From: Algoriphagus resistens
Lineage (GTDB): Bacteria > Bacteroidota > Bacteroidia > Cytophagales > Cyclobacteriaceae
Length of the DNA stretch: 64,000 nucleotides
NCBI RefSeq assembly: GCF_001442615.1
Contig: NZ_LMXN01000007.1
Span: 1-64,000, forward strand
Direction of reading: 5' to 3'
The position numbers and the translations under genes are program-made. Positions 9,874-46,915 of the stretch are shown here, piece after piece. The notes beneath the pieces are model-generated. The model was not told the origin of the DNA and ran no database searches. It worked only from the letters and a program-made list of their open reading frames with translations. The first letter of the stretch is position 1. Each line of letters begins with the position of its first letter.

Positions 9874-10869
9874 TTAGGGGTTTAGCTTCGCCAAAATGTC
9901 TTTCGCTTCATGCCACTGTAGCCTTGGACCAAATTGACCTACAATCTTTGAGCTCGCCATGGACGCAAGTTTCCCGCTAGAAGCATAACTGTGACCGTTG
10001 GTAATGCCGTACATAAAAGCTCCTGCAAACATATCACCTGCACCATTGGTATCTATCGCGGTAATTGCATAAGGCTCTATGTCTATGAACGTATCTCCAT
10101 CATAGATTAAAGCGCCGTTTTTCCCTTGGGTAATCACAAAATGCTTTGCCAGTTTTTTCATTTCTTCCCGGGCTTCTGTCAGCGTATCTTTTCCGGTGAA
10201 AATCATTGCCTCTTCTTCATTTGCAAAAAGCAGATCCACACTAGCTCCAATTACTTCAGTCATTGGTTCTTTGAAGTACTTCACCATCGCAGGATCTGAG
10301 AATGTCAAAGCCACTTTCACACCGTTTTCCTCTGCCACTTCCTTTGCATGCTTCATTGCCTCTTTACCATTCTGCGAAGTGATCAGGTACCCTTCTATAT
10401 ATAGATATTTTGAATCTTTGATTGCAGCTTCGTTGACATCCGCACTAGAGTAGGTCTGCGTGATTCCCAAAAAAGTATTCATTGTTCGCTCTGCATCTTC
10501 TGTCACCATCACAAGGCATTTTCCCGTGATCCCTTCAGCCAAATTGGTTTCGCTGAGGTTATGTGAAACACCTGCATCTTTCATGTCATTCATATAAAAA
10601 TGACCAAGTTCGTCATTGGCTACTTTGCAGGAATAATAGGCCTTGCCGCCAAACTGCGAAACCGCAATTACTGTATTTCCAGCCGATCCCCCGCACTGTT
10701 TTTTGGCCTGCTCTGTATTAATTACTTGCATTAGGGCATTTTGACGCTCTTCGTCCACCAGTGTCATCAGCCCTTTTTCGACAGCATTGTCAGCAAAAAA
10801 CTGATCTGTTACCTTGAATTCAATATCTACTAAGGCATTTCCTATGCCCGTTACATCGTATTTTTTCAT
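9874..10869 (-). CDS. Adenosine kinase / PfkB-family carbohydrate kinase
   Basis: A 331-residue ribokinase-fold kinase. The N-terminal signature GGSAGNTVIAVSQFGG (about residues 60-75) and the C-terminal PfkB motif DTNGAGDMFAGAFMYG (about 273-288, catalytic Asp in GAGD) are intact. The start MKKYDVTGIGNALVDIEF is typical of the adenosine kinase subgroup, which phosphorylates adenosine to AMP in purine salvage. It stands alone with its own terminator; the palindromic doublet lies just upstream of its ATG. Substrate choice within the family is inferred. Confidence 0.8.
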   Translation of the reverse strand: MKKYDVTGIGNALVDIEFKVTDQFFADNAVEKGLMTLVDEERQNALMQVINTEQAKKQCGGSAGNTVIAVSQFGGKAYYSCKVANDELGHFYMNDMKDAGVSHNLSETNLAEGITGKCLVMVTEDAERTMNTFLGITQTYSSADVNEAAIKDSKYLYIEGYLITSQNGKEAMKHAKEVAEENGVKVALTFSDPAMVKYFKEPMTEVIGASVDLLFANEEEAMIFTGKDTLTEAREEMKKLAKHFVITQGKNGALIYDGDTFIDIEPYAITAIDTNGAGDMFAGAFMYGITNGHSYASSGKLASMASSKIVGQFGPRLQWHEAKDILAKLNP

Positions 10870-10895
10870 ATGATTATATTTTGTCTTTTAAAGGC

Positions 10896-10961
10896 CATAT
10901 GGAATCTCGCATGGGAGATAATCATCCCAGTGTGTGACGCTGGAGTCATGCTCGATTTCAT
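10896..10961. repeat. Palindromic intergenic repeat, copy A
   Basis: A 66-bp element with arms CATATGGAATC and GATTTCAT that fold into a stem closed again by internal CATG segments. It differs from copies B and C mainly in one inner arm (GGGAGATAATC in place of GCATTATAATC). It lies 26 nt from the adenosine kinase start. Confidence 0.75.
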
Positions 10962-10987
10962 CTGTTTATTTTTTGTTTCTCAGTGGT

Positions 10988-11053
10988 CATATGGAATCTC
11001 GCATGCATTATAATCATCCCAGTGTGTGACGCTTTCGTCATGCTCGATTTCAT
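10988..11053. repeat. Palindromic intergenic repeat, copy B
   Basis: A 66-bp element nearly identical to copy A, separated from it by 26 nt of T-rich linker. Its inner part reads TGACG-CTTT-CGTCA, a perfect 5-bp hairpin, where copies A and C have a weaker 4-bp version. Confidence 0.75.
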
Positions 11054-11113: not shown

Positions 11114-12277
11114 TCAATCAAATATCCGATGCCGTTCAAAAGGCTTAGTCCGGTCAAATAAGTACCGATAGGTGTGATGAGTCTTATAAATCTCTGCCAA
11201 AAGCTGCTCACAAACCCGCATCATCTTGGGATTGAAATCCCCGATCCAATTCATCTCTATAGTTTTGTAAGGGAATGAAGGCTTGCCGCTCATTTTATCA
11301 TAACTAAGGATCATGGCACTCTCTACTCCCTTCCCCTGATGCTCTGGCACTACACCAAACACCAGTCCGAGCATTTTATTAGGGGGTGAAAAGGTCTTAT
11401 ACCAAAGAAATTTGAGTTTACCGATCAAATCCATTTTTCCATTCACATGTTTGAAGAGCTGGTTGATTTCCGGAATCTGAATGAAAAACGAAACGGGTTC
11501 CCCTTTATAAAACCCAAAGTAAATCAGCTTTTCATCAATAATGGGGGCCATTTTGGCAAACATCATTTGGGCTTCCTTGAGTGCAAGAGATTTCCCCATA
11601 TGACGTGCCCAGGCTTTATTATATACCGTCATAAAATATTCCGGTGCTTTTTCTTTAAGCTCTTTGCCTCTCAGGTAGTGAAAATCGTAATCGGGGTCAT
11701 CCATAATTACCTTAGCACGAGCTTTCATTTTGTCATCAAAGCCTAGATTCTGCACAGGTCTGGCATAAGTGAATTGTTTAAAATAAATCTGAAAACCGTA
11801 TTTTTCGAAGAAATCCTGGTAGTAGCCAAAGTTCCAGGGCATATTATAATTCGGCTCAGTAAAGCCGTCCACGAGCAACCCCCACCATTTGTCCCGCTCT
11901 CCGAAGTTGATCGGACCGTCCATGGCCTCCATACCTTCGCTTTCCAGCCAGGCTTTTGCTGTATCAAAAAGTAAAAAAGCAGCGGCTTGATCATTGATAC
12001 ACTCAAAGAAACCCAACCCGCCTGTCGGTTGTTTTTCTTTCATCTTTGGATTGATGAAAGCTGCCACACGACCTATGGTTTCTCCGGCTTCATTTTGCAG
12101 AAGCCAGCGTTTGGCCTTTGCCCCATTCCGAAAAAGCTTGTTGGTTTCTTTATGAAAAAGCCCCTCGATATCAGCATCAAGAGGCCTGATCCAATTTTTC
12201 TCGTTTTTATACAATCTTACTGCCATCTCAATAAACTCCTTCTGATGGGCAGATGTGACAACTTCTATCAACTTCAT
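11114..12277 (-). CDS. GNAT-superfamily-like protein
   Basis: A 387-residue soluble protein without signal peptide. It looks like the GNAT (N-acetyltransferase) superfamily proteins of about 380 residues that are common in Bacteroidota: an N-terminal domain with GETIGRVAAFINPK (about residues 65-80) and a C-terminal domain with MLGLVFGVVPEHQGKGVESAMIL (about 298-320), where VVPEHQGKGVES resembles the acetyl-CoA pyrophosphate loop (Q/RxxGxG/A). Substrate is unknown. It is a single-gene unit between the repeat doublet and the LytTR operon. Confidence 0.65.
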   Translation of the reverse strand: MKLIEVVTSAHQKEFIEMAVRLYKNEKNWIRPLDADIEGLFHKETNKLFRNGAKAKRWLLQNEAGETIGRVAAFINPKMKEKQPTGGLGFFECINDQAAAFLLFDTAKAWLESEGMEAMDGPINFGERDKWWGLLVDGFTEPNYNMPWNFGYYQDFFEKYGFQIYFKQFTYARPVQNLGFDDKMKARAKVIMDDPDYDFHYLRGKELKEKAPEYFMTVYNKAWARHMGKSLALKEAQMMFAKMAPIIDEKLIYFGFYKGEPVSFFIQIPEINQLFKHVNGKMDLIGKLKFLWYKTFSPPNKMLGLVFGVVPEHQGKGVESAMILSYDKMSGKPSFPYKTIEMNWIGDFNPKMMRVCEQLLAEIYKTHHTYRYLFDRTKPFERHRIFD

Positions 12278-44470: not shown

Positions 44471-45373
44471 TTAGCTTTTCAGCAGCTCATTGTACTTTCT
44501 CGCATTATTTGGATCAACTTCCAAAAGTAGTTCGACTATTTCTGTTCGAATCTCAAGGGAAGCATTTTTCATAATTGAAGTTATTTCATCACTTTTGGCA
44601 TCCATAAAAGAAATCACAAATATACCATTAGGCTGAGTTTTATTAGCTTCTGCCAAAATCCGAATTGCTTCTAGGATATTAGCATATGCCTCTTTTGGAC
44701 GAATCTGAAGAATATCCAACCCTTGGCGATGATACAAATAATAGGCATCCCGGATCACAGAAAAGACCGAAGACGTATAGATATCGTTATTTAAAGCATA
44801 GCGGTTCCGTCGATCAGAGGTGCTTTGTGTCCAGCCAGGCCTACCTGATTGCTGGGCATTATTTACTATATCATTTGCTGCAGCAAAGAATTCGCTACCA
44901 CCGCGGCTTTCAAAAGAATCATAATCCAATCCCAAAGAGATATGAGCGTAGAATGCCAACAGAGAGCTAATATTATTCAGGTACGTAAACCGGTTGAATT
45001 CCAGTGGTTGTGATTCTATATAATCAAAACTCCAATTCCTATCTGCAAAGTTAAAAACCAAACTTTCGTAATTAGTCCCATAAACAGGCCTGACGGTCTG
45101 AATCTGAACCGTAGCATTATAAGTCCCTACCTGTGGCACATCATTAATCGTAATAAGCAGGTTCCCTTTGATTCGTTCCTCGGGACGAAATTCATCGGTA
45201 GTCCACGATCGCCCGTTAAGAAATTGCTCAAAACTGGTTTTCATCTGGTTAAAAACGTCTGTATTCTGGATTCTCGCGCGGTCGCTATTGATAATTACGG
45301 TAAAATTCAACTCCTGAGAAAACCCAAGGAATGAATAGCAAAAAAAGAGTGTCAAAAGAATTCCTTTTATCAT
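44471..45373 (-). CDS. DUF4835 family exported protein (PorD-like)
   Basis: A 300-residue protein with the signal peptide MIKGILLTLFFCYSFLGFSQ. It matches DUF4835, with ELNFTVIINSDRARIQNTDVFNQM at the mature N-terminus and LLAFYAHISLGLDYDSFESRGG in the middle. The family is conserved in Bacteroidota and has been linked to type IX secretion under the name PorD; I recall this link but cannot check it. It sits between coaBC and recN, the usual order. Confidence 0.78.
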   Translation of the reverse strand: MIKGILLTLFFCYSFLGFSQELNFTVIINSDRARIQNTDVFNQMKTSFEQFLNGRSWTTDEFRPEERIKGNLLITINDVPQVGTYNATVQIQTVRPVYGTNYESLVFNFADRNWSFDYIESQPLEFNRFTYLNNISSLLAFYAHISLGLDYDSFESRGGSEFFAAANDIVNNAQQSGRPGWTQSTSDRRNRYALNNDIYTSSVFSVIRDAYYLYHRQGLDILQIRPKEAYANILEAIRILAEANKTQPNGIFVISFMDAKSDEITSIMKNASLEIRTEIVELLLEVDPNNARKYNELLKS

Positions 45374-45399
45374 ACGTTTATTTTTTGTTTATCAGCTGT

Positions 45400-45465
45400 C
45401 ATATGGAATCTCGTATGCATTATAATCATCCCAGTGTGTGACGCTGGAGTCATGCTCGATTTCAT
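45400..45465. repeat. Palindromic intergenic repeat, copy C
   Basis: A 66-bp element nearly identical to copies A and B 34 kb away. The T-rich linker TTTATTTTTTGTTT precedes it, the same linker that precedes copy B, so the repeat unit includes this segment. Confidence 0.75.
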
Positions 45466-45489
45466 TGATTATAATTGTTTTAAAATGGT

Positions 45490-45565
45490 CAGATGGAATC
45501 TTTGACGATTAAAATAATCATTGCACTGTGTGTTTTAATGATGATTTTAATCGTGTCGATTTCAT
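45490..45565. repeat. Palindromic intergenic repeat, diverged copy D
   Basis: A 76-bp element with the same ends (ATGGAATC and GATTTCAT) but an unrelated inner stem: GATTAAAATAATCATT pairs with AATGATGATTTTAATC with one mismatch. The central GTGTGT is retained. It lies 24 nt after copy C. Confidence 0.65.
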
Positions 45566-45601
45566 ATGTTTAATTTTATTTTTCAGCTAACATTTAGCAA
45601 G

Positions 45602-45620
45602 TCCCGAGCTTGATTCGGGA
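45602..45620. repeat. Short GC-rich hairpin
   Basis: TCCCGA (45602-45607) pairs with TCGGGA (45615-45620) around a 7-nt loop. It may belong to the structured region next to copy D; no T-tract follows, so it is not called a terminator. Confidence 0.35.
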
Positions 45621-45706
45621 AAATCTCTAATTGAATAATCATCCGGCAGTTCGTCGCACATGACATGCACGAATTTATATTCTTAAAAATACGGAAATAA
45701 AAAGGC

Positions 45707-46915
45707 TCAAACCCAAACTGGGATATTTTTGATTTGATCTATTATCAGATTAGCAATTTGCTTTTTGGGAGCAATCTCAGATTGAACGGTCAATCCTGAT
45801 CTATGAAAAATATGCACTTTATTCGTATCAAACTGAAATCCAGCCCCCTGATCCTTCATTGAATTGAGGACGATCATGTCAAAATTCTTCTCAGAAAGCT
45901 TACGTTGGGCATTCTCCTCTTCCTTCTCAGTCTCCAGAGCAAAGCCAATATGCACTTGGTTTTGCTTTTTCTTACTTCCTAATTTTGCAGCGATATCTAC
46001 ATTTTTTACCAAATTAATCGAAAGAGTCGCATCCTTTTTTTTAATTTTCTCCGGAGAAACTTCCGCAGGAGCATAATCTGCTACAGCTGCCGCAAAAACA
46101 CAAATATCCATTTGTTCATGGATTTCAACAGCTGCCTGATACATTTCACTAGCAGATTTCACATCCTTCCAACGAAAATTAACCTTAGGGACTTTTAATG
46201 AAATCGGGCCGGAAATCACAAACACTTCGGCACCCCGCGAAAGAAAGGCATTTGCCAAAGCAAGCCCCATTTTGCCACTGGAATGATTACTTACATACCT
46301 CACAGGGTCAATTGCCTCTTGCGTAGGCCCCATAGTTATCATCACTTTCTTTCCACTGAAATCAGACTTTACCGCAAAAAACTGTTCCACCTTCAACAAA
46401 ATATGTTCCGGCTCCATCATTCTGCCCCGACCAGATAATCCACTGGCCAATTCCCCTGATTCGGCATCAAGGACTACATTCCCGAAGGTCTCTAATTTCT
46501 CAATGTTTGAAAGTACCGAAGGATGCTGATACATGTCCAGGTCCATCGCCGGAGCTAGCATCACAGTACATCTTGCAGACAAGTAGCTAGCAGAAAGTAA
46601 ATTATCACATATGCCATTGGCGAATTTCGCCAAGGTATTTGCACTGGCTGGTGCAACTAAAAATAAATCTGCCCAAAGCCCCAATTCTACATGATTATTC
46701 CAAATTCCGGTTTTGTCATGCTGAAACTGACTTAAAACCGGCCTTTTGGAAAGTGTTGCCAAGGTGAGCGGTGTGATAAAATCAAAAGCAGAAGTGCTCA
46801 TAATGACCTGCACTTCTGCTCCTGCTTTAATTAATAGACGGGTAAGAACAGCTGACTTGTAAGCAGCAATGCTTCCTGTCACGCCCAATATGATTTTCTT
46901 ACCCTTGAGGCTCAT
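45707..46915 (-). CDS. coaBC: Bifunctional phosphopantothenoylcysteine decarboxylase/synthetase
   Basis: A 402-residue enzyme of coenzyme A synthesis. I start at the ATG giving MSLKGKKIILGVTGSIAAYKS; 45 extra residues of a longer frame overlap rpoZ. The flavin-binding CoaC half (about 1-180) has APASANTLAKFANG and the substrate motif PAMDLDMYQHP. The CoaB half (about 185-402) has ITMGPTQEAIDPVRYVSNHSSGKMG, AAVADYAP and the lysine-rich segment. It directly follows rpoZ. Confidence 0.93.
   Translation of the reverse strand: MSLKGKKIILGVTGSIAAYKSAVLTRLLIKAGAEVQVIMSTSAFDFITPLTLATLSKRPVLSQFQHDKTGIWNNHVELGLWADLFLVAPASANTLAKFANGICDNLLSASYLSARCTVMLAPAMDLDMYQHPSVLSNIEKLETFGNVVLDAESGELASGLSGRGRMMEPEHILLKVEQFFAVKSDFSGKKVMITMGPTQEAIDPVRYVSNHSSGKMGLALANAFLSRGAEVFVISGPISLKVPKVNFRWKDVKSASEMYQAAVEIHEQMDICVFAAAVADYAPAEVSPEKIKKKDATLSINLVKNVDIAAKLGSKKKQNQVHIGFALETEKEEENAQRKLSEKNFDMIVLNSMKDQGAGFQFDTNKVHIFHRSGLTVQSEIAPKKQIANLIIDQIKNIPVWV

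Follow-up and report, generated by a model that had tools for sequence, protein, structure and literature searches.

Repeats in a 64,000-nt stretch of the Algoriphagus resistens genome (hereafter the window) are probably copies of a non-autonomous mobile element of ~92 nt, a reading to which we assign a probability of roughly 0.7. The element would insert at ATGAAA (TTTCAT on the opposite strand), mostly at start codons and in the sense orientation. We infer its mobility from comparison of loci with and without a unit, and within the Algoriphagus group many unrelated genes appear to have received this short hairpin precisely at their start codon.

Read on the gene strand, a unit runs from ATGAAATCGAGC through a stem-loop to GCGAGATTCCAT and an A/T-rich linker of ~29 nt, followed by the ATG of the gene; the foot of the hairpin is CANATGGAATC in the units listed. 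The window contains two doublets, A/B (10899-11053) and C/D (45403-45565), both on the minus strand. Each ends precisely at a start codon, A/B at 10867-10869 and C/D at 45371-45373. In the first, unit B (10991-11053) is followed in register by unit A (10899-10961, identified by repeat alignment and profile search), whose linker (10870-10898) precedes the start codon of a PfkB-family gene (9874-10869). In the second, unit D (45493-45565, 73 nt) is followed by a linker (45466-45492) running into the ATG that opens unit C (45403-45465; 63 nt, ATGAAATCGAGC...GATTCCAT on the gene strand). The linker of C (45374-45402) lies between the stem-loop and the ATG of the DUF4835/porD gene (45371-45373), which forms the right junction of the unit. 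Upstream of D and C, also on the minus strand, a profile match (45622-45676, E 0.0045) that is weak by score appears to be a decayed older unit; its first codon now reads ATA and, as judged from relatives, it adjoins the native leader of the DUF4835 gene.

A sequence-only reading of the window had described C as almost identical to A and B, and D as keeping the ends and the centre around a replaced inner stem. Whole-length alignment bears out both descriptions. A, B and C are of one type (63 nt, ATG to CAT on the gene strand) and can be aligned end to end, while D has the same ends and central TGTGTG and a different, longer inner stem. This stem pairs with a single mismatch, as had been proposed, in segments of 11 and 6 bp; folded as DNA on the plus strand, D was better than all 200 shuffled sequences (z −6.1). 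The folds of A, B and C alone are weaker as DNA (z −1.96, −0.85 and 0.12, respectively). Both loci are indeed doublets; by the boundaries used here, however, their linkers measure 27-29 nt instead of the 24-26 nt first given. The start codons at which the two doublets end were no part of that reading.

A search of the 6.13-Mb host genome with a pattern made of the ends common to the repeat copies gave 162 exact matches and none for the reversed control, which argues against a chance origin of the repeats. Fourteen of the 100 matches listed for this genome are of the D type. The pattern matched at least once in 47 of the 59 genus genomes and 132 of the 295 family genomes, figures in which single matches in relatives may be due to chance, since the reversed control also matches some genomes once. 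Among the matches listed, the named carriers include Algoriphagus, Cyclobacterium, Lunatimonas, Lunatibacter and Indibacter, together with one MAG labelled Flavobacteriaceae, and the host genome was the richest in units of those searched. A profile search of two host contigs (C1 and C12) and the window, 1.54 Mb altogether, detected 88 units at E<1e-3: 23 with the next unit in register, 59 terminal and 6 truncated on the gene side. The suggestion that the doublet is the unit of mobility or function did not hold, because single copies are commoner than tandems: 40 of the 59 terminal units had no preceding unit detected at this threshold in the 1.54 Mb, and triplets also exist.

The placement of the units is exact. 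Among the terminal units scoring at least 60 bits in the 1.54 Mb (n=40), 33 lie on a start codon in sense and 37 on ATGAA. The junction ATG opens an ORF of at least 50 aa in 31 cases, and inspection added two further start codons, those of a 39-residue lipoprotein-like ORF and of a gene with its ATG 5 nt further on; the other 7 units lie away from start codons. The automatic count for the named genomes came out lower: among 113 exact-pattern units, 43 are in tandem, and the searched interval contains an ATG in 58 cases (opening an ORF of at least 50 aa in 45) and lacks one in 12, several of which have ATGAAA just beyond that interval. In two relatives with a unit at a window gene (G028 and G064, see below), 27 of 30 units have an ORF of at least 70 aa starting behind them, and one is followed by a further unit. 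The same start codon can carry different unit types in different species (host contig C12 318545, L357 in G028 and L360 in G037).

Judged by their N-termini, the downstream genes look functionally unrelated and include coaD-like, galE-like, SusD-like and amidohydrolase-like genes. A regulon was considered and rejected: 45 downstream N-termini were read by eye, and no common function was evident. On host contig C12, a separate start-codon unit is present at each of three adjacent amidohydrolase-like genes (316756, 318545 and 320028).

Orthologues lacking the unit carry a native leader that continues straight to the same ATG. The empty-site comparison between coaBC and the DUF4835 gene, suggested by the sequence-only reading, yielded the main result. 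At this gene, named PorD of type IX secretion in the source proteins, 6 of 13 tabulated genomes have the native leader TATTTCCTTATTTTTAAG.CT adjoining the ATG, and 7 have a unit directly after this leader; in the host, the order is native leader, decayed unit, D, C and gene. A two-gene tree of these 13 genomes requires either several gains or several exact losses. All 29 scored orthologues of the PfkB-family gene are unit-free, and in the host two units separate the gene from its leader, which ends in ...CTTTCCAATTATATAG. The window also provides the converse case: the gene at 11114-12277 (minus strand, start codon 12275-12277) begins directly after ...TAAAATCACCCGA, while G028 and G064, whose orthologous proteins are 94% and 86% identical, respectively, have the same leader, then a unit, then the gene. 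The units of these two relatives (L461 and L476) have in common a variant start hairpin, CATGAG/CTCATG.

To locate the junction, the 30 nt before the first unit were compared with the best orthologous leader at 20 loci having a unit-free orthologue. Offset 0 beat all 30 other offsets at 14 of the 20, with the reservation that the relative was picked by its offset-0 score, which favours this offset. The remaining 6 loci failed the test; in some of them, an older unit sits in the flank.

On the gene side, the junction reads ATGAA in 41 and ATGAAA in 35 of 43 units scoring at least 50 bits, against a background of 256 (36%) and 136 (19%), respectively, at 709 ORF starts. The left flank shows no clear motif. 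Target-site duplication is absent, because units keep ATGAAATC even where the gene begins ATGAT or ATGAAT. The sequences thus show the unit lying exactly between the native leader and the native ATG, with nothing duplicated and with ATGAAA both at its own beginning and after its end. Further units can land at these sites, and doublets and triplets are better explained by a new unit landing at the ATGAAA that opens an existing one.

Covariation supports the hairpin itself. In 144 distinct 62-mers of the C type, the two pairs of variable columns that covary best, 40-45 and 38-47, both belong to the hairpin; at neither did any of 1,000 shuffles reach the pairing observed. The C-type inner hairpin is thus supported as kept by compensatory change, in line with the earlier suggestion that the fold matters; for the D-type stem, to which that suggestion was first applied, the 5 distinct copies are nearly identical and leave it where it was. 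Wobble leaves either strand as a candidate for folding, because G-T and A-C cells occur with similar frequency in the displayed counts. Folding the long A/B region as mRNA gave nothing out of the ordinary (z −1.02). In the terminal stem, two mismatched positions (columns 8-9 and 53-54) are nearly invariant and form a tandem G-A/A-G step on the gene strand.

A second covariation links the CATNTG after the stem with the CAN'ATG at the junction. The two are complementary in 21 of 31 host units (13.0 expected from shuffling), in 17 of 22 units of G037 (8.7) and in 60 of 67 of the named genomes (24.0); a looser tally in the host genome gave 36 of 62. Such pairing can act in DNA, joining a guide to the cleaved junction, or in mRNA, masking the start codon. 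With less confidence, we suggest that the element inserts, site-specifically and without duplication, by way of a folded single strand. We favour this because the segment flanking the hairpin, CANATGGAATC, is able to pair with each junction, TTTCAT/NTG and GATTTCAT/ (the stroke marking the junction), much as the guide sequences of IS200/IS605 elements do.

The same evidence bears on a reading that we consider possible but doubtful, namely that the units belong to a familiar class of REP or IS200/IS605-derived repeats, which a Y1 (HUH) transposase mobilises in trans. TTTCAT would then be the cleavage sequence, and insertions within genes would have been lost. A hairpin with a complementary foot segment, a fixed target on one side, growth in tandem and no target duplication all fit this account, and candidate enzymes are widespread: of 72 genomes in the genus, 65 have Y1 genes and 70 have matches to the RAYT model. 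The genes checked in the genus are, however, not flanked by units, and we found no mobilising enzyme there: an ordinary unit lies within 1.5 kb of only one (L189) of 34 Y1 loci, none of these 34 is an autonomous element with tnpA and the same ends, and one of 30 RAYT loci has a unit fragment. The host genome, for all its 162 matches, gave no RAYT match at E≤0.01. The host Y1 genes (L031-L033), tried as carriers, were set aside, since on reading they resemble tnpA genes of the IS605 type, or remnants, whose ends are different.

Strand preference points both ways. The unit-bearing loci of G037 (n=87, tandems merged, from 100 of 107 matches) comprise 46 on the leading and 41 on the lagging strand, against 66% leading and 34% lagging expected (P 0.0075). 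The direction fits a lagging-strand preference, but the size of the bias is far from a strict rule. The units also lack the GT[AG]G foot. A further point in favour of an enzyme of this type is that TnpAREP genes of subclass 2.6 in Bacteroidetes are flanked by atypical structures that are copied elsewhere in the genome, according to PMC6006769; the TnpAREP family stays a lead because of these atypical flanks.

We rate the repeats as a variant of REP/MITE-like elements. Like the REP, BIME and REPIN sequences associated with TnpAREP (RAYT), they are small palindromic repeats in high copy number, single or clustered, and many short palindromic copies do lie outside genes. In REPs, the cleavage site is recognised through pairing with a stretch at the foot of the hairpin (PMC6006769), to which the foot segment of the units can be likened. 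The units differ in having a CANATGGAATC foot where the definition in PMC6006769 has a GT[AG]G tetranucleotide, in lying apart from the RAYT genes checked, and in being placed exactly at start codons in one orientation. With IS200/IS605 elements and their derivatives, as described in the same paper, they have in common site-specific insertion with one fixed flank and no target duplication. They may also resemble them in using a subterminal guide: a segment near the end of the unit can pair, and covaries, with the junctions, but this pairing could also act in mRNA. Unlike these elements, the units have one hairpin, not two, and follow no strict lagging-strand rule. Rickettsia palindromic elements are likewise palindromic repeats that enter many unrelated genes without destroying them (PMC10969869), but they lie in frame within genes, whereas the units stand before the ATG and carry a separate leader ORF. 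Classical MITEs are similarly small, non-autonomous and present in many copies with inverted repeats; the units lack their target-site duplication, and only one arm of the inverted repeat reaches an end of the unit, the other lying ~29 nt inwards. PMC6006769 places REP-kind repeats largely between genes. In contrast, 33 of 40 copies checked here hit a start codon with single-base precision, and the gene stays readable.

Rfam gave no match at the gathering score in the window, and a permissive scan of 45300-45720 returned only two, sub-threshold and both at D. A literature search retrieved no report of these repeats in Cyclobacteriaceae or of start-codon insertion; subscription literature lay mostly outside its scope, so absence is unproven.

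Insertion at a start codon leaves the native ribosome site opposite a new start, ATG AAA TCG AGC, which opens a leader ORF (MKSS...ARFH...), often of 28-31 codons; D-type leaders stop after 15. We suggest that the native ribosome site now starts this leader, which usually ends at or shortly before the ATG of the gene, and that the gene is translated by coupling or from the A/T-rich linker brought by the unit. Start-codon insertion may be tolerated because the gene stays translatable in either way. The leader frame was followed in units selected for an ATGA junction with either a further unit or an ORF of at least 50 aa downstream. It continues beyond the stem-loop in 35 of 43 (host), 69 of 84 (named genomes), 21 of 24 (G037) and 25 of 28 (G028/G064). 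The leader stop overlaps the next ATG in 20, 23, 4 and 9 of these units, respectively, and lies at most 30 nt before it in 13, 41, 17 and 12. Bacteroidota mRNAs are described as lacking Shine-Dalgarno sequences, and A at −3, −6, −12 and −13 as favouring initiation in Flavobacterium, in PMC6847099. Position −3 is C in 36 of 43 units, which speaks against a strong initiation site given that preference for A.

Whether the leader is selected was approached in several ways, and the selection tests on the ORF are mixed. Open frames alone prove little, because young copies have a common open ancestor. In a neutral-decay test, 18 of 19 frames of G028/G064 were open against 14.5 expected (a value reached by 94 of 2,000 simulations); in the named genomes, 48 of 63 were open against 50.9. 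The synonymous share exceeds the neutral value in host and named copies, falls below it in G037 and is weakly above it in G028/G064. Among the old copies of G028/G064, conservation is 92-96% at those end bases that the search pattern leaves free, compared with 68% for the middle and 55% for shuffled middles; this suggests constraint on the site, in copies that were found by their ends and are biased to that extent.

These data also bear on whether the unit is maintained because it works as a translational control element, which we regard as unlikely. On that account, GATTCCATNTG pairs with either the leader start or the gene start (CAN'ATGAAA), and access to the gene start depends on whether the leader is translated. 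Consistent with it, CATNTG covaries with a partner that contains the start codon of the gene, the ends of old copies are better conserved than their middles, and leader stops overlap the ATG or precede it by at most 30 nt in 33 of 43, 64 of 84, 21 of 24 and 21 of 28 units. The orthologous units L461 and L476 differ, on reading, only synonymously in the first ten leader codons. Against it, the 45 downstream proteins have no evident common function, close relatives lack the unit at most of these genes, the units at the DUF4835 gene decay, the leader tests are mixed, the mRNA fold is weak, and the end-versus-middle comparison is biased by the recovery of old copies through exact ends. A combination with the mobile element is conceivable, and we offer it tentatively: a single-hairpin start-codon cassette targeting ATGAAA may make the native start codon that of a leader ORF and so plant the same coupled translational control on unrelated genes, with leader translation opening the start hairpin and old copies being selected.

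If both mobility and coupling hold, a ready-made leader ORF and translation start would be spreading naturally through the genome. The many matched genes with and without a unit are material for studies of translational coupling. For annotation in these genomes, an ATG ~92 nt upstream of a unit-bearing gene should not be taken as the start of that gene.

A mobile element targeting ATGAAA must also be set against the availability of its target. Contigs C1 and C12 contain 206 ATGAAA sites at called gene starts and 260 at intergenic non-starts (rough gene calls), so the target sequence alone predicts ~44% at starts. The 33 of 40 units at starts exceed this expectation (P 7e-7 at 0.44, 2e-5 at 0.5 and 2e-3 at 0.6); the excess may reflect selection, transcription or a wider motif. 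That these are random short repeats near genes, the bacterial intergenic space usually ending at a start codon, is very improbable: the 7 of 40 terminal units away from start codons agree with it, but the base-exact junctions, single orientation, intact native leader on the far side and excess over ~44% of ATGAAA sites do not.

The middle of the unit also varies between genomes. In three of them (G049, G039 and G063) it has an extra hairpin, CCCCGATACATCGGGG, replacing the ATTATAAT stretch.
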